A stretch of DNA of 64,000 nt, taken from contig NZ_JADQDQ010000009.1 in NCBI RefSeq assembly GCF_015694725.1, positions 124,001-188,000 of the forward strand, read 5' to 3'. The notes below the pieces were generated by a model. That model did not search any database. It was given only the letters and a program-made list of their open reading frames with translations, and had not been told where the DNA came from. Position numbers and translations under genes: made by a program. Below, in pieces: positions 9,811 to 15,932 of the stretch (the first letter of the stretch is position 1; each line of letters begins with the position of its first letter). Source of the stretch: Hymenobacter jeongseonensis. GTDB taxonomy: Bacteria > Bacteroidota > Bacteroidia > Cytophagales > Hymenobacteraceae.

Positions 9811-11337
9811 CTATCCAGTCACCAGGTCGTTTGGCACGGGCGGGCCTTCGCGTAGCAAGCCCAGGACCAGTTCCCACAGGTGCTCGTAGGGAATGATTTC
9901 GACTTCAGCAAACGCCTCGCCGGGCGGGGGGGTGTCGCGTAGCTGCTCCAGAAGGACCGCGCCCCTTTCGGCCGCCTGCGCCGCCTCGAAGTTCTTTTCC
10001 ACAATCAGCTGCAAAAGGCGCAGAAACAGCCGGCTCCGCAAGGTGGTGGGCTCGTACAAATGCCGCTGCTGGTACTTGCGCAGCCGTTCCAGGCGCATCA
10101 GCACTTGCTCCAGGTTGCGTTCGCGCAGGAAGTGCAGCAGCTGGAGCACCAAAATGGCCACGTTGTGCCCGCGCTTATCGCGGCTGTACTCGGGCAGTTG
10201 CAACACCCATTGGGCCATTTGCCGCTGCCGGGCCGTGGTGAGGCGTTGCGGAGGCAGCACAAATTCGAGGTAGCTCTTATATAAATCCCAACGCTGCAAC
10301 GCTGTTTCGAGCTGATTGGGGTAGCCCGGATTTTTGGCTATTATCGCCAGCAAATTCTGGGCCCGTTCGTATTGCTGCGCGTGCAGCGCCAGCAACATGT
10401 GGTGCTCTTGGAAGTAGAACCAGTTGTTGGACGAAGGGTGAAAATCGCGCGAATACTGCTCTGCTAGCCGCAAGCCCTGCACCGGCTGCCGGCTGCGCAA
10501 ATAGGCGTAAATGCTCACGAAGTGATTGAAACGCAAGTCGAAGCGCCGTGCATTGAGCTTGCCTTCGCGCAGCCGCCGGGAAGCCGCTGCCGTCACCCGA
10601 ATCATCTCAACGTAGTTTCCCTGCAGCTCTTCGTACGCCAGCCGCGCCCGGTAGGCGAGGTTATACGTTACGAAGCTGCGGGCGCGGCGGTGCAAGGCTT
10701 CCAGTTGCTCAATGCGGGTGGGCAGTAGCACCAGCACGGCGCGGCGCGCGGCCACCGTGCCGTTTAGGGCCAGCTGCGTATCGGCGTACAGCTGCTCGGC
10801 CTCGTCTTCCAGGGCCAGCACTTGCTGCGCCTTCAGCAGCACTTTCACCGTTTTCTTGTAGGGAATGGCCTGCCGCTGTTCCATATGCAGGTTGCGCAAC
10901 ATGCGGGCGCTTTGCACCACGTACTGCGTAAATTCTCCCGCCTCGGCCAGGCGCAGGCAGCGCTGCAGCAAGCGCTCCGACAGTTTGAAGTCCCGTTCGG
11001 CGTACAGAATGCTCACCTTATGCAGCTGGTCCAAGCACTCCAGTTCGTAGCGCCGCGATACCAAATGCCTTGGGTCCGAGTGGTCTAGGAAATAAAGCTG
11101 GTTCAGCAACTTACTTCGCACCCGGGACTGCAGCTTCTGCAGCGCCCGCACATTTGCCGGCGTTGCTTTTCCGTATAGCGCCTTCACTACTTGCAGCTGG
11201 GTAGCGTCGGGCGACTTGGTCAAAATGGTTACAAATTGATTTTCCTTGCTCGACTGCTTGCCCCGCAAGTCCAACACGGGCAAAGAAGCCAAGCTCCGGA
11301 ATGTCACAATTCGCGCCAAATTCGCAATTTCATTCAT
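9811..11337 (-). CDS. Large helical protein of unknown function
   Basis: 508 residues from an ATG at 11337 (MNEIANLARIVTFRSL). No signal peptide, membrane segment or enzyme motif was recognised. The sequence is rich in Leu, Arg and Gln and appears all-helical, with amphipathic helix pairs such as SERLLQRCLRLAEAGEFTQY and YERAQNLLAIIAKNPGY that suggest divergent TPR-like solenoid repeats. It reads like a conserved cytoplasmic Bacteroidota protein but I cannot name a family. It converges with the OmpA gene (44-base gap). The frame is long, with codon use like its neighbours, so it is very likely real. Confidence 0.8.
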   Translation of the reverse strand: MNEIANLARIVTFRSLASLPVLDLRGKQSSKENQFVTILTKSPDATQLQVVKALYGKATPANVRALQKLQSRVRSKLLNQLYFLDHSDPRHLVSRRYELECLDQLHKVSILYAERDFKLSERLLQRCLRLAEAGEFTQYVVQSARMLRNLHMEQRQAIPYKKTVKVLLKAQQVLALEDEAEQLYADTQLALNGTVAARRAVLVLLPTRIEQLEALHRRARSFVTYNLAYRARLAYEELQGNYVEMIRVTAAASRRLREGKLNARRFDLRFNHFVSIYAYLRSRQPVQGLRLAEQYSRDFHPSSNNWFYFQEHHMLLALHAQQYERAQNLLAIIAKNPGYPNQLETALQRWDLYKSYLEFVLPPQRLTTARQRQMAQWVLQLPEYSRDKRGHNVAILVLQLLHFLRERNLEQVLMRLERLRKYQQRHLYEPTTLRSRLFLRLLQLIVEKNFEAAQAAERGAVLLEQLRDTPPPGEAFAEVEIIPYEHLWELVLGLLREGPPVPNDLVTG

Positions 11338-11707
11338 GATAAAAGTCTTCTACAAGCCCCTGTTGAGCCTTTTTGCAATCAGACGGCTCTGCAAACCCAT
11401 GTCGCATTTGCGCCGCTTATTTCCTTTTTTCATTGCTTTGCGCCCTACAATCTTTGTATCGTGATTATTCATCCCCATTTCAAGGGTTTGACGTCACAAA
11501 TTGAGCCTTTTTTTTTAACGGTCAAACTAAATAACACCGTTAGGAAAACGGAATTGCTCTTCATTTTCTTTTAACATATTAAAATACCATAGTTTATTAC
11601 CAAAGAACAAGTCTGTTTTAAGGCAACATTGTCCTTTTGTACGGTAGCAGGATGCGTCAACTTTGTGTCACTCAAACATCTGACACACCTCTTAATCGAT
11701 AAACGCC
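11338..11707. other. AT-rich divergent intergenic region upstream of the repeat-peptide gene
   Basis: About 370 bases, strongly AT-rich from 11480 to 11640. It holds the promoter at 11631-11669. No other gene was recognised; a plus-strand frame over 11191-11574 mostly overlaps the minus-strand gene and has no family character. Confidence 0.45.
11631..11669 (+). promoter_or_regulatory. Promoter of the repeat-peptide gene, paired with 16202-16240
   Basis: It has a -33-like TTTTG at 11635-11639, an 18-base spacer, and a -7 box CAACTTTG at 11658-11665 (7 of 8 to TAnnTTTG). That fits Bacteroidota sigma-A promoters and predicts a leader of about 35 bases before GTG 11708. The whole 39-base block matches 16202-16240 at 29 positions, including GTCCTTTT and CGGTAG, which are not part of the promoter consensus. 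A shared operator inside the spacer is therefore possible. Confidence 0.65.
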
Positions 11708-12070
11708 GTGCTGAATCTCCTCGCCATCGCCCTGCTCCAATTCGCTAGCCTCTCGTCTGGTGTTGCTAAGGAAACTGCCACCGTTCAGGCTAACTCGGTC
11801 AGAGCGAGCACCAGCATCGCAGTAAGTGGTGAGGGCGGCACCGGCGGCTGGGTTGGCGACATCGCTGCAGTGGGCGGCACCGGTGGTTGGGTTGGCGATA
11901 TTGCCGCGGTTGGTGGAACCGGCGGGTGGGTTGGTGATATTGCGGCCGTAGGCGGTACTGGCGGCTGGGTTGGCGATATCGCTGTAGCGGGTGGAACTGG
12001 TGGTTGGGTCGGCGATATCGCTTCAGTGGGCGGCACCGGCGGCTGGGTTGGCGACATCATCGCCGCCTAG
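11708..12070 (+). CDS. Small repeat protein with six 13-residue GGTGGWVGDIAAV units
   Basis: 120 residues from GTG 11708; a stop lies in frame at 11693, so the N-terminus can hardly be longer. Residues 1-42 are a leader-like part: a hydrophobic start (MLNLLAIALLQFASL, no basic n-region) then a Ser/Thr/Ala-rich stretch. Residues 43-120 are six tandem units, each 39 bases, of GGTGGWVGDI plus three small residues. Units 1-3 are identical as protein yet differ at many codons, so the peptide sequence is under selection. It has its own promoter and sits 71 bases before a peptide-type ABC substrate-binding gene. It could be a multi-core precursor peptide, an exported structural protein or a substrate of the transporter. 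No family recognised and no modifying enzyme is adjacent. Confidence 0.72.
   Translation: MLNLLAIALLQFASLSSGVAKETATVQANSVRASTSIAVSGEGGTGGWVGDIAAVGGTGGWVGDIAAVGGTGGWVGDIAAVGGTGGWVGDIAVAGGTGGWVGDIASVGGTGGWVGDIIAA
11834..12067 (+). repeat. Six 39-bp in-frame tandem repeats
   Basis: Units begin at 11834, 11873, 11912, 11951, 11990 and 12029. GGTGGWVGDI is invariant in all six; the last three residues vary (AAV, AAV, AAV, AVA, ASV, IAA). Between unit 1 and unit 2, seven of 13 codons differ synonymously; between units 1 and 3, nine of 13. Confidence 0.95.
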
Positions 12071-12092
12071 GTCTTCCCGGCGCTCACGTTTC

Positions 12093-12136
12093 GTGTCTAT
12101 CTTGCTTCGCTGCTGCATAAACGGCAGTTTAGACAC
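12093..12136 (+). promoter_or_regulatory. Intercistronic hairpin between repeat peptide and transporter genes
   Basis: GTGTCTA at 12093-12099 pairs with TAGACAC at 12130-12136, with a smaller CTGC/GCAG stem inside. There is no T-run, so it is not a standard terminator. It could stabilise the upstream mRNA or lower read-through into the transporter genes. Confidence 0.35.
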
Positions 12137-12141
12137 CTCGC

Positions 12142-13890
12142 ATGAAGCCTCATTCTTCGGCCTTTTTTCTGCTTTGTGCTGCAATAGGTTTTTGTAGTCA
12201 AAGCTGTTCTGCGCCCGAGGGCAAGGACCTCGCCATTCGGGTGCGCTGTGCTTATGACCCCGAGTCGTTGAACCCGCTACAGCTGCCTAACCAGCAGGCT
12301 TTTGACGCCGCGAATCTGCTGCATGTCAGCTTATTACAAGCCGATTTTTCTAAAAAGGAAATAGCCCCTGCACTGGCCGAAGCCCTTCCTACGGCTGAGC
12401 TCGTTGGGGATTCGTTGACCCGCGTTTCTTACCGCATCCGCCCGGCGGCAACCTGGGATACCGGCGGGCCCGTGCTGGCCACGGATGTGGCGTTTACCTT
12501 AAAGCTGATGTTTTGCCCGGGCGTGCCCAACGAGACTTCACGCCTCCAATTTGGGTTTATCCAAGGCCTTATTCCCGACCCGCACGACCCGCGCCGCTTC
12601 ACCTTGGAATGCCGCGGTCAAGGAACGGAATACCAACAAGCCACGGGCGACTTTTTTATTCTGCCAGAAGCCGCACTCGACCCTCAAGGCGAGTTGCGGC
12701 GCTTTTCATTGGCCGCGTTGCAGCGCCGCCCCCAGAACGCCCCCGATTCGGGACTGGCCGCCGTGGCCCGGCGCTACCGCGCCCTAGCCCCCGGCAAATT
12801 ACCAGGCTGCGGCCCCTACCAATTAACCGCCTGGGAAAAAGACCGGTACCTCGCCTTTCGCCGCAAGGCAAACTGGTGGGGCAGCCGGCTCCGGCCCACG
12901 CCGTTCGTGCTGCAGGCCCGCTCTCAGAAGTTGGCTTTCGTCATCATTCCAGATGCCGCGACGGCGAGTTTGGCCCTGCAACGCGGCGACTTGGATATTT
13001 TCCCGCAAATGCCTGCTCGAGAATTTGCGCGGCTGCGCAAGGCGACGGCCGCGCGGCCTGCGCTCTCCTTTTACTCGGTGCCATCCTACGATGTGGTAAC
13101 GGCCGGCTTTAATACCCGCCGACCGGCCCTTGCCGATGCCCTGACCCGGCGGGCGCTGAGCCATTGCTTTAATGCGGCGGGCTTGTTGCAGGCCACCCAG
13201 ATGGGCGAAGGACAGCAAACCGTCGGCATCATCAGCCCGCTGGACCGCCAGAATTACAACGACAGCCTTGCCCCCGTGCCGTTCGACCTCGCCAAAGCCG
13301 AGGCGCTTGTTCGCCAAGCGGGCTGGCAGCGCCGGGCCGGCACCGAAACAGGCTGGGTCCGGACCCGGCCGGGCAGCAAACAGCCCGAGGTTTTACAGGT
13401 ATCCATGCGCTATCGGGCCGATGAAACCACTTTCGCGACCATTGCGCTCCAATTCAAGGCCGCGGCGGCGAGCCTGGGAATTGCCGTCTCGCTGTTGCCC
13501 ACCGAAGCGGGCTCGTTTACCACGGCTTTGCGCACCAGCGACTTTGATATGTACGTGCGCACGCTCAAGGGCAATCCATTCATGTTCAACCTTGCGCCGC
13601 TGCTGCATTCGCGCGCCATTGGCCAGAGCAACACAACGGGCTACAGTGGGGCAGCGAGTGACCGGCTCCTCGACGCCATTGCTGTAGCTGAAAACCCCAC
13701 GCGCCGGGCGCAGTTGCTGCGGAAGTTCCAAACATTGATGCAAGCCGAAATGCCTTGGGTGCCCTTATTCTTCCTGCCTACCCGCATTGCGGCCAGCCAC
13801 GAGCTAACCGGCCTTCACGTCACAGGCCTCAAACCCGGGTTTGCCCTTACCGCTGTGGAGCGTTCGGCGAAATCCACTCCCACTCCGTAG
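12142..13890 (+). CDS. ABC transporter substrate-binding protein, family 5 (peptide type)
   Basis: 582 residues. The N-terminus (MKPHSSAFFLLCAAIGFCSQ then SCSAPEG) is an export signal with a cysteine in a lipobox-like place, so a lipoprotein is likely although the box is not perfect. The mature part has family 5 (Opp/Dpp/Nik) features: YDPESLNPLQLPNQQAFDA near the start, the middle RRALSHCFN segment, and a C-terminal block reading MQAEMPWVPLFFLPT. Family 5 proteins bind oligopeptides, nickel complexes or opines. The gene lies 71 bases after the repeat-peptide gene and 3 bases before a DppB-type permease, so it is one operon with the permeases. The ligand is unknown. Confidence 0.88.
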   Translation: MKPHSSAFFLLCAAIGFCSQSCSAPEGKDLAIRVRCAYDPESLNPLQLPNQQAFDAANLLHVSLLQADFSKKEIAPALAEALPTAELVGDSLTRVSYRIRPAATWDTGGPVLATDVAFTLKLMFCPGVPNETSRLQFGFIQGLIPDPHDPRRFTLECRGQGTEYQQATGDFFILPEAALDPQGELRRFSLAALQRRPQNAPDSGLAAVARRYRALAPGKLPGCGPYQLTAWEKDRYLAFRRKANWWGSRLRPTPFVLQARSQKLAFVIIPDAATASLALQRGDLDIFPQMPAREFARLRKATAARPALSFYSVPSYDVVTAGFNTRRPALADALTRRALSHCFNAAGLLQATQMGEGQQTVGIISPLDRQNYNDSLAPVPFDLAKAEALVRQAGWQRRAGTETGWVRTRPGSKQPEVLQVSMRYRADETTFATIALQFKAAAASLGIAVSLLPTEAGSFTTALRTSDFDMYVRTLKGNPFMFNLAPLLHSRAIGQSNTTGYSGAASDRLLDAIAVAENPTRRAQLLRKFQTLMQAEMPWVPLFFLPTRIAASHELTGLHVTGLKPGFALTAVERSAKSTPTP

Positions 13891-13893
13891 CGC

Positions 13894-14958
13894 ATGGTGT
13901 GGCCCTTGCTCAGGCGCTTATTTCGGACGGTACTGGCCGTGTGGGCCTTGGCATCTTCGGTATTTCTGCTAAGCCGCCACGACGCGAACACCGCCACGTT
14001 ACTGTTCCTGCCCGACTCTTCGGAATCGGTGGCCACCGGCAATGGCAATGCGGCTGACTACGCCGCGGCGCAGCGGGCCGTCCAACACCGCCTGGGCCTC
14101 GACTTACCTTTGTTTTACGCAAGCCAACAGCCCAACGCGCCGGCCAACACGGCACAATGGCGATGGAATGGCACTCAAAACCAATACCATCGCTGGATGG
14201 TCCGCCTCCTGCACGGCGATTTAGGCACCTCTTTCCGCACGGCGCAACCTGTCACCACCCGGATGTGTAGTGCATTGGGTTTCACTTTGCCCCTAACCGG
14301 CACGGCGGCGCTGCTGGCCGTCTTGACGGCTTTGGCGTTGGCTCGGCGCCTAGCGGCCAAGCCCTGGTGGCAGCACCCCGTGCGGGCGGCACTGGTGGCA
14401 GTGCACGCGCTGCCCCTGTTTGTGCTGGCCTTATTGCTGTTGCTGACGTTTGCTAATCCTGCAGTAGTTGCCTGGTTTCCAGCTTATGGCCTCGACCAAT
14501 TGGCGGCTGATTCAGACAACTGGAGCCGTACTCAAACCTACTTGCTGCATTTGGTGCTACCCGTGGCTGCACTCACGCTCGCGGCGCTGCCGGAACTCAC
14601 CTTGCAGCTCGATGCGGCCTTAACCCAGGAGTTGCGCACCGATTATGCCACCACCGCCCGCGCCAAAGGCTTGGCCGAAGGAGCCGTCATCCGGCACCAC
14701 GCCCTGCGCAATGCTTTGCTACCTACTCTTACCCAAGTGGCTGAGCTGCTGCCTGCCATGGTGGCCGGGGCCGTGGTGGTGGAAGTGGTGTTTGCCCTCC
14801 CCGGCATGGGCCGGCTGCTGGCCGACGCCGCGGCCGGCCGCGACTATCCCGTGCTGGTGGGCGGGGTTCTGCTAACGGGGGCGGCCCGCCTGCTGGCGCT
14901 GCTTCTGGCCGACCTTCTTTATTTCTGGGCCGACCCGCGCATCCGGTGGCAATCCTAA
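13894..14958 (+). CDS. ABC transporter permease, DppB/OppB type
   Basis: 354 residues from ATG 13894. An N-terminal membrane helix (LLRRLFRTVLAVWALASSVFLL) is followed by a periplasmic part and a BPD permease domain from about residue 125. The EAA-loop region reads TTARAKGLAEGAVIRHHALRN, and the end reads VVVEVVFALPGMGRLLADAA, both typical of the DppB subunit. Its periplasmic insertion (about residues 30-115) is longer than in many DppB proteins. It is followed by the DppC-type partner with a 13-base overlap, so the two are translationally coupled. No ATP-binding subunit is encoded in this operon. Confidence 0.9.
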   Translation: MVWPLLRRLFRTVLAVWALASSVFLLSRHDANTATLLFLPDSSESVATGNGNAADYAAAQRAVQHRLGLDLPLFYASQQPNAPANTAQWRWNGTQNQYHRWMVRLLHGDLGTSFRTAQPVTTRMCSALGFTLPLTGTAALLAVLTALALARRLAAKPWWQHPVRAALVAVHALPLFVLALLLLLTFANPAVVAWFPAYGLDQLAADSDNWSRTQTYLLHLVLPVAALTLAALPELTLQLDAALTQELRTDYATTARAKGLAEGAVIRHHALRNALLPTLTQVAELLPAMVAGAVVVEVVFALPGMGRLLADAAAGRDYPVLVGGVLLTGAARLLALLLADLLYFWADPRIRWQS

Positions 14959-15932
14959 CTTTTTCTTCGCTCTCCTGGCCACAAAAGCTGGCTGGGGTTT
15001 GGCTAAGCTTCATAGTGCTTATGGCACTGCTGGCGCCGTACTTGCCGCTCCCCTACCCTCCTCATGAGTCCGATTTGGCACACGTAGCCGAAGCGCCCTA
15101 CAGCATGGGCAGCACGGGCTTGCACTGGTTGGGCACCGACCCGCAGGGGCGCGACGTGTTGAGCGTGCTTGTATTCGGGGCCCGTACGGCCGTATTGCTT
15201 ACGCTTCCGGCGGCCTTTCTAGCGGCTTTGCTGGGGTCACTGGCCGGCGGGGCCGCCGGCTTTTGGGGAAATACCCGCCGGCTGGCAGTGCCTTATTGGC
15301 TACTGGCCTTGGGCGGCCTGTGGTGGGGACTGCGATTTCCAGTGCCCTTAGTGGGTGCAGGAGTTGCCGCTCTGGGAGTCGCCGCCATCGTGCTGGCCCT
15401 CCTGCGCCCACGCCCTATTCCCACTTGGCCAGTTCCTATCAACGCCATAGTCATGGGAGCCGCTACCACCTTGGATTCCATTCCGCGCCTGATTCTGGTG
15501 GTGGCCATAGCTGCCGGCAGTGGGGTCTCGGCACCCGGCCTGCTGGCCTTGCTTACCCTGACGGCGTGGCCGCATTCGGCCCGCTTGGTACGGGCCCAAA
15601 TGCTGCGAATCCGTACCCTGCCCTTCATCGAAGCAGCCCATGCAGCCGGCCTTTCATCCTGCAAAATTTGGTTGCATCACGCGTTGCCGCATGCCATCCA
15701 ACCCCTGCGAACAGCCCTGCCACTCAGTATAGCTGGGCTGCTGGGGCTGGAGAGCACCTTGTCTTTTCTCGGCATTGGCTTGCCCCCTGATGTAGCGAGT
15801 TGGGGCAGACTTATGAGCGCCATCCGCAACGAACCAGACGCTTGGTGGACGCTTGCGCTTCCAGCCACATGCCTGATAGCAAGTATTTTATCACTCAATG
15901 CACTAGGGCGCAGCCGACACAAATCGCTATAA
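14946..15932 (+). CDS. ABC transporter permease, DppC/OppC type
   Basis: 328 residues from GTG 14946, overlapping the end of the preceding permease. It has an N-terminal membrane helix, a GTDPQGRDVLSVLVFGART motif diagnostic of DppC-type subunits, and the EAA loop FIEAAHAAGLSSCKIWLHHA. An extra hydrophobic stretch (about residues 115-150, with LLALGGLWWGLRFPVPLVG) lies between the first helices, which I do not recall from typical DppC. It forms the heterodimeric channel with the upstream permease. The operon ends here; no ATPase gene follows. Confidence 0.88.
   Translation: MAILTFSSLSWPQKLAGVWLSFIVLMALLAPYLPLPYPPHESDLAHVAEAPYSMGSTGLHWLGTDPQGRDVLSVLVFGARTAVLLTLPAAFLAALLGSLAGGAAGFWGNTRRLAVPYWLLALGGLWWGLRFPVPLVGAGVAALGVAAIVLALLRPRPIPTWPVPINAIVMGAATTLDSIPRLILVVAIAAGSGVSAPGLLALLTLTAWPHSARLVRAQMLRIRTLPFIEAAHAAGLSSCKIWLHHALPHAIQPLRTALPLSIAGLLGLESTLSFLGIGLPPDVASWGRLMSAIRNEPDAWWTLALPATCLIASILSLNALGRSRHKSL

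Follow-up and report, generated by a model that had tools for sequence, protein, structure and literature searches.

The locus described here, identified in a window of 64,000 nucleotides from Hymenobacter jeongseonensis (the whole stretch of DNA that was analyzed), is probably a peptide-pheromone cassette of the quorum-sensing type, comprised of a precursor, an importer and an intracellular receptor (Table 1). The repeat protein of 120 amino acids most likely serves as the precursor for a signal that is secreted and passes between cells. This reading is based on the combination of a leader with C-terminal or tandem cores, an importer, a TPR-like partner (H508), and strain-specific cores that track H508.

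Table 1. Features of the proposed cassette, in coordinates of the window
Feature	Coordinates	Strand	Remarks
H508, 508 aa, predicted TPR-like helical solenoid, proposed intracellular peptide receptor	9811..11337	-	Divergent from the peptide gene
Divergent intergenic region	11338..11707		Near-constant length in 110 genus loci
Promoter-like element, upstream copy (TCCTTT ... TTTGTA)	11422..11458	+	Presumed function
Peptide-gene promoter-like element: TCCTTT, 24 bp, TTTGTG, then TCACTCAA	11632..11675	+	Conserved spacing
Peptide precursor ORF	11708-12070	+	GTG start, TAG stop, 120 aa
Precursor leader (hydrophobic stretch, MLNLLAIALLQFASL) and variable linker	11708..11833	+	Leader conserved across genera
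Six 13-residue units GGTGGWVGDI-xxx	11834..12067	+	Starts 11834, 11873, 11912, 11951, 11990, 12029
Second promoter-like box TATCTTGC (12098-12105) and inverted repeat GTGTCTA / TAGACAC	12093..12136	+	Just before the SBP start
SBP_bac_5 solute-binding protein (SBP), proposed peptide capture	12142..13890	+	PF00496, E=1.4e-41
OppB/DppB-like permease	13894..14958	+	PF00528, E=2.2e-26; NCBIfam Opp B-type below cut-off
OppC/DppC-like permease	14946..15932	+	PF00528, E=2.7e-17; OppC_N weak; NCBIfam Opp C-type below cut-off

There is strong evidence that the peptide ORF is real and that its repeats are under selection for the peptide. The GTG start is backed by homologs, which have ATG/GTG-Leu/Phe-Asn/Glu starts at a nearly equal distance from H508 genus-wide. 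GGTGGWVGDI is invariant in 6/6 units of the ORF, and variation is confined to unit residues 11-13, exactly as in the original prediction, including the synonymous codon counts: units 1-3 are the same as protein, while their codons differ in 7, 9 and 8 of 13 positions, all synonymously. The claim that the units are old and selected for the peptide is also borne out, as in the 10-codon core all 72 of 72 pairwise base differences fall in codon position 3 and none is non-synonymous; nine columns vary, and by a crude estimate the chance of nine random changes all being silent is ~7e-6. Codon drift between units that is silent only strongly indicates selection on the peptide. Tandem Repeats Finder reports a period of 39 with 5.8 copies (score 263), and a super-period of 117 bases scores 317. 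An antisense ORF (PTQPPVPP) was considered as a source of the codon pattern and rejected, as it explains the pattern no better.

No Pfam or NCBIfam family matches the peptide protein, and a search of the plasmid collection yielded no match. The sole match of a contig search with the single peptide protein is an unrelated GC-rich Streptomyces repeat, and the sole Rfam match is a sub-threshold CRISPR-repeat at chance level.

The whole peptide protein was also searched against 120 genomes of the genus, where not every listed match is a true homolog. At every principal genus H508 locus inspected there is a small precursor with a hydrophobic leader and 1-20 G-x-x-G-W cores. The architecture in relatives consists of the leader (MLNLLAIALFQVASF or MLELIAIALLQLASF), a variable linker rich in Ser, Thr, Pro and Ala, and 1-20 cores. 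The leader consensus across genera is M(L/F/I)xLxxxxLxQ; its hydrophobic stretch has no Lys or Arg, which is unusual for a Sec signal peptide, and the net charge over the first 14 residues is -1 or 0. Both Lys and Arg are wholly absent from 43 of 127 precursors.

The cores themselves are highly diverse, with 83 distinct majority cores among 104 loci. Variants in strains of the genus include GGTGGWAGDI, GGVGGWGGDI, HGTSGWGDGY, HGNGGWSG, GSGGWGNSDV and GGTGWGNGDI, and single C-terminal cores are QGGGGWGGD, HGAGGWGDNH and GGGTWGEGH; in other genera single cores such as IGTSGWDDRN, GGTGSWDDNN, YGGTGNWDTKD and IGGNGWGETH are observed. For 11-residue stretches around Trp, core identity is 90% within a gene versus 48% between genomes. 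The only residues invariant across the genus are the Trp and the Gly four residues before it, G(-4). Thr is replaced by Ser, Gly, Ala, Val or Asn in relatives, and Asp at +3 is present in 46/104. Hence the fixed places ascribed originally to Trp, Thr and Asp hold inside the window gene, but across the genus this is true of Trp only.

Single-core precursors occur in 25 of 110 genus loci and in 16 of the 17 other-genus loci scored, 15 of these 17 having exactly four residues after the last Trp. These counts bear on the possibility that the gene encodes a secreted structural or surface repeat protein (an adhesin, amyloid or ice-binding protein) under concerted evolution, as might be suggested by the Gly-rich 13-residue tandem repeats, homogenized in each genome. 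A one-unit protein would be unable to form a repeat scaffold, and, moreover, the pairing with the importer and H508 is constant, which makes this explanation very improbable. Thus, of the two unmodified alternatives considered originally, the secreted-type peptide stands, and the structural protein is unlikely, many relatives being single-core.

Several loci show other arrangements. In one locus of another genus (L158), three whole single-core precursor genes stand in tandem, 376-1039 bp from the H508 start; here it is the whole gene that is multiplied, instead of repeats within it. Small divergent ORFs that begin with a hydrophobic stretch lie upstream of some distant relatives of H508 (L180, L188, L189). 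Two of these ORFs end in ...DEDGW and ...DGEGW; they are possible distant precursors with a different core.

The downstream genes encode, as was predicted from the window and is now confirmed by Pfam, a peptide-type binding protein and two permeases; the SBP_bac_5 protein is the sole match of its kind in its own genome. The importer operon contains no ATPase gene, and a fused OppDF is encoded elsewhere in the genome. This ATPase is retained in all eight genus genomes lacking H508; as it does not follow the module, it is shared.

The locus order is H508 (divergent), peptide, SBP, OppB, OppC. The neighborhood of repeats and transporter, whose constancy in relatives was left to be checked, persists widely: the SBP and two permeases follow the peptide gene in nearly all genus loci, and the order is identical in 20 of 20 loci of five other genera. 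A full module is also present in a more distant family (L174), with the peptide ending in ...CAIGWDDND. The distance from the H508 start to the peptide start is 341-386 bp (mode 370) in the 110 genus loci, and it is near constant although H508 identity drops to 42-50%.

Several points count against the pheromone reading. Among them are the leader without Lys or Arg and, as set out below, the lack of a significant PDB fold match for H508, N-terminal H508 helices not established as a DNA-binding domain and lacking helix 2 in one genus, and the incomplete removal of phylogeny by partial Mantel tests. Further, for several of the more distant H508 relatives within the order no recognizable peptide was found. 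The number of independent losses is also small. In the eight genus genomes without H508, there is no SBP at E<=1e-5 and no convincing peptide match; in the OppDF tree seven of these genomes form a single clade, and the remaining one, a MAG of 82% completeness, falls outside it. Since seven genomes group together and the eighth is incomplete, the sequences point to one clear joint loss of H508, SBP and peptide rather than eight. Lastly, the cassette includes no protease or exporter gene.

The original prediction compared the units with the multi-core precursors of modified peptides, while noting that no modifying enzyme is adjacent. In this explanation the locus would encode the precursor of a RiPP (such as a graspetide or lanthipeptide) or of a bacteriocin, whose units are enzymatically modified and released, the importer serving self-uptake or immunity. 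A leader with repeated cores, a nearby importer of small peptides and the strain-to-strain diversity of cores are all in line with it. However, no modifying enzyme was found among gene clusters recurring in at least 8 of 60 loci within 8 kb; conservation in the cores is confined to G(-4) and Trp and does not extend to residues open to modification (Ser, Thr, Cys, Asp, Glu); and the cassette is near-universal and single-copy in the family, while bacteriocins are usually patchy in spread. The modified-peptide reading does not hold up in the relatives and is considered improbable.

Farther from the peptide gene, beyond H508, two more genes recur in relatives, one for a 1220-aa sensor-like protein (36 of 60 loci) and one for a response regulator (PF00072; 33 of 60), at about -7200 and -3500 from the peptide (L072-L091 and similar loci). 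The window contains neither; there, an OmpA-type gene is situated directly beside H508 instead.

The divergent gene encoding H508, missed in the original prediction, is the constant partner of the peptide gene. H508 is present in 112 of 120 genus genomes, usually in a single copy, in 197 of 205 genomes and 6/6 genera of the family, and in 32 of 130 genera of the order. It has no Pfam or NCBIfam family match, though some members match Pfam TPR models below the cut-off, and a PDB profile search gave chance matches only. The AlphaFold2 model of the window protein is all alpha (pLDDT 88.9, pTM 0.83), as is that of the L158 relative, which belongs to another genus (pLDDT 87.8). In the Foldseek comparison with PDB, TPR proteins are on top (DdvA, LGN, APC subunits, MalT domain III) with a probability of ~1.0, but the best E-value is 2.6e-3 and none reaches E<=0.001; RRNPP receptor chains are absent among the 50 matches listed. 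Judging by the predicted structures, H508 is a TPR-like protein. An OmpR-type winged helix was considered at its N terminus and set aside as unproven: the profile-profile alignment spans the domain, yet the Trans_reg_C probability is 2%. Members from one genus have no helix 2 in the N terminus.

Outside the genus of the window but still in its family, a locus (L190, 1033-7002) has four tandem H508-like genes upstream of one peptide-SBP-permease set, an array that looks like receptor expansion or diversification.

Co-divergence of the peptide core with its neighbors was assessed by Mantel tests on 88 genus loci, with the nearby gene RmlD used as a species proxy. Core distance correlates with that of H508 at r=0.62, of the binding protein at 0.57, and of RmlD at 0.46. 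Given RmlD, the partial correlation between core and H508 is r=0.47 (P=0.001), while, given H508, it is r=0.01 (P=0.37) for RmlD and 0.08 for the binding protein. In non-redundant sets H508 alone shows a clear partial correlation (0.25-0.43), the others reaching at most 0.14. As partial Mantel tests remove phylogeny only incompletely, these values support, rather than prove, that the peptide core and H508 diverge together. No helix was singled out by the mutual information of H508 columns with positions of the core.

Co-occurrence and co-divergence show that peptide and partners are functionally linked, but not which way the link runs, and no DNA-binding domain was established in H508. Hence H508 or the importer might act on the peptide in some other way, for instance with H508 being a chaperone, export or processing factor and the signal being sensed elsewhere. 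We regard this as unlikely: the dedicated peptide-type binding protein and permeases indicate uptake, short peptides are common ligands of TPR solenoids, and the four H508-like genes beside one peptide gene resemble diversification of receptors.

The promoter-like element of the peptide gene (TCCTTT-24 bp-TTTGTG, 11632-11667) retains its geometry, the start-to-start distance between TCCTTT and TTTGT being exactly 30 bp in 94 loci. Each of two patterns derived from it is found once in its own genome, at this site, so that a search of this genome for a regulon with the peptide promoter pattern gave no further targets. In 52 of the 110 genus loci the plus strand carries a second copy, ~210 bp farther upstream. 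In addition, an inverted repeat TGTGTCA-10 bp-TGACACA covers the TTTGTG box in the intergenic region; a strict pattern detects it at 18 of the 110 genus loci; its left half is widely conserved.

Before the SBP gene, most genus loci have, as judged by eye, a promoter-like TA(A/T)CTTGC box and, after it, a hairpin whose sequence varies; these may function as an operator or at the RNA level. In the gap between the peptide stop and the SBP start (12071-12141 in the window; also, e.g., L099, L112) the hairpin often ends right before the SBP start codon. A small ORF directly upstream of a transporter, with an inverted repeat in between, could also be a cis-acting leader peptide (attenuator), where translation of Gly- and Trp-rich codons controls the transporter operon. 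Such a role is extremely improbable, given that there are up to 20 units, that the amino acids are strongly selected while codon choice is free, that the strain-specific cores track H508, and that the SBP gene has a promoter-like box of its own.

If the locus is a pheromone cassette, its operation may be outlined as follows. The hydrophobic leader would take the 120-aa precursor out of the cytoplasm, and its tail would be cut by proteases into several copies of a peptide of 9-13 residues with GGTGGWVGDI as its basis. Powered by the shared OppDF ATPase, the SBP and the two permeases would then re-import this peptide. Inside the cell the peptide would bind H508 and alter its activity, and H508, directly or via partners, would change gene expression, probably including that of its own locus. 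The cassette would also be expected to depend on cell density and to have target genes.

We see an even chance that the cassette represents a family-wide pheromone system of Bacteroidota reaching through the order, with strain-specific tandem Gly/Trp pheromones (up to 20 copies per precursor), a dedicated importer and a new family of TPR-like receptors, independent of, or undetectably distant from, RRNPP of Firmicutes. If so, Bacteroidota gain a peptide signalling system that is open to testing and inherently strain-specific; the many natural alleles (83 distinct cores) open ligand-receptor specificity and pheromone amplification to direct study; and a receptor family now without a Pfam or NCBIfam entry receives a name.

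Several known systems are similar in part. Like yeast alpha-factor precursors, the proteins described here have a leader followed by many near-identical copies with variable spacers. However, alpha-factor, whose precursors carry many pheromone copies, is eukaryotic, relies on dibasic cleavage sites and acts on a membrane receptor, while here 43 of 127 precursors have no Lys or Arg at all. The transporter resembles Dpp/Opp ABC importers, consisting by Pfam of SBP_bac_5 and BPD_transp_1 permeases; unlike these, it is permanently linked to the repeat peptide and H508, and its operon lacks the ATPase.

Gram-positive Firmicutes are known to use imported peptide signals, and the closest known systems are the RRNPP/RRNPPA ones (Rap-Phr, NprR-NprX, PlcR-PapR, AimR-AimP, Rgg-SHP, ComR-ComS). 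RRNPP propeptides leave the cell through Sec or PptAB, and the effector domain of the receptors is an N-terminal HTH or a Rap-type three-helix bundle. A search of the open-access literature found no such peptide signalling described for Bacteroidota. The RRNPP_detector survey was confined to Firmicutes and viruses (PMC10075063), and no peptide signal for Gram-negatives is named in a review from 2026 (PMC13419125). In RRNPPA propeptides of Firmicutes the mature peptide can be present in as many as six copies (PMC9765709), and extracellular proteases process the tandem propeptides of two phage Rap systems (PMC11343458).

The window system differs from RRNPP in that it belongs to Bacteroidota, has importer genes inside the cassette, divergent promoters, up to 20 copies and a leader without positive charges. 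Moreover, H508 shows no detectable sequence match or significant fold match to RRNPP receptors, and is thus not filed as a member of that family; homology is not claimed. Still, as in RRNPP, a small precursor adjoins a TPR-like protein of similar size, the mature peptide (here, the proposed one) is C-terminal or occurs as tandem copies, there is an oligopeptide importer, and precursor core and receptor (here, the proposed one, H508) diverge together. The best reading is that the cassette works in the manner of RRNPP.
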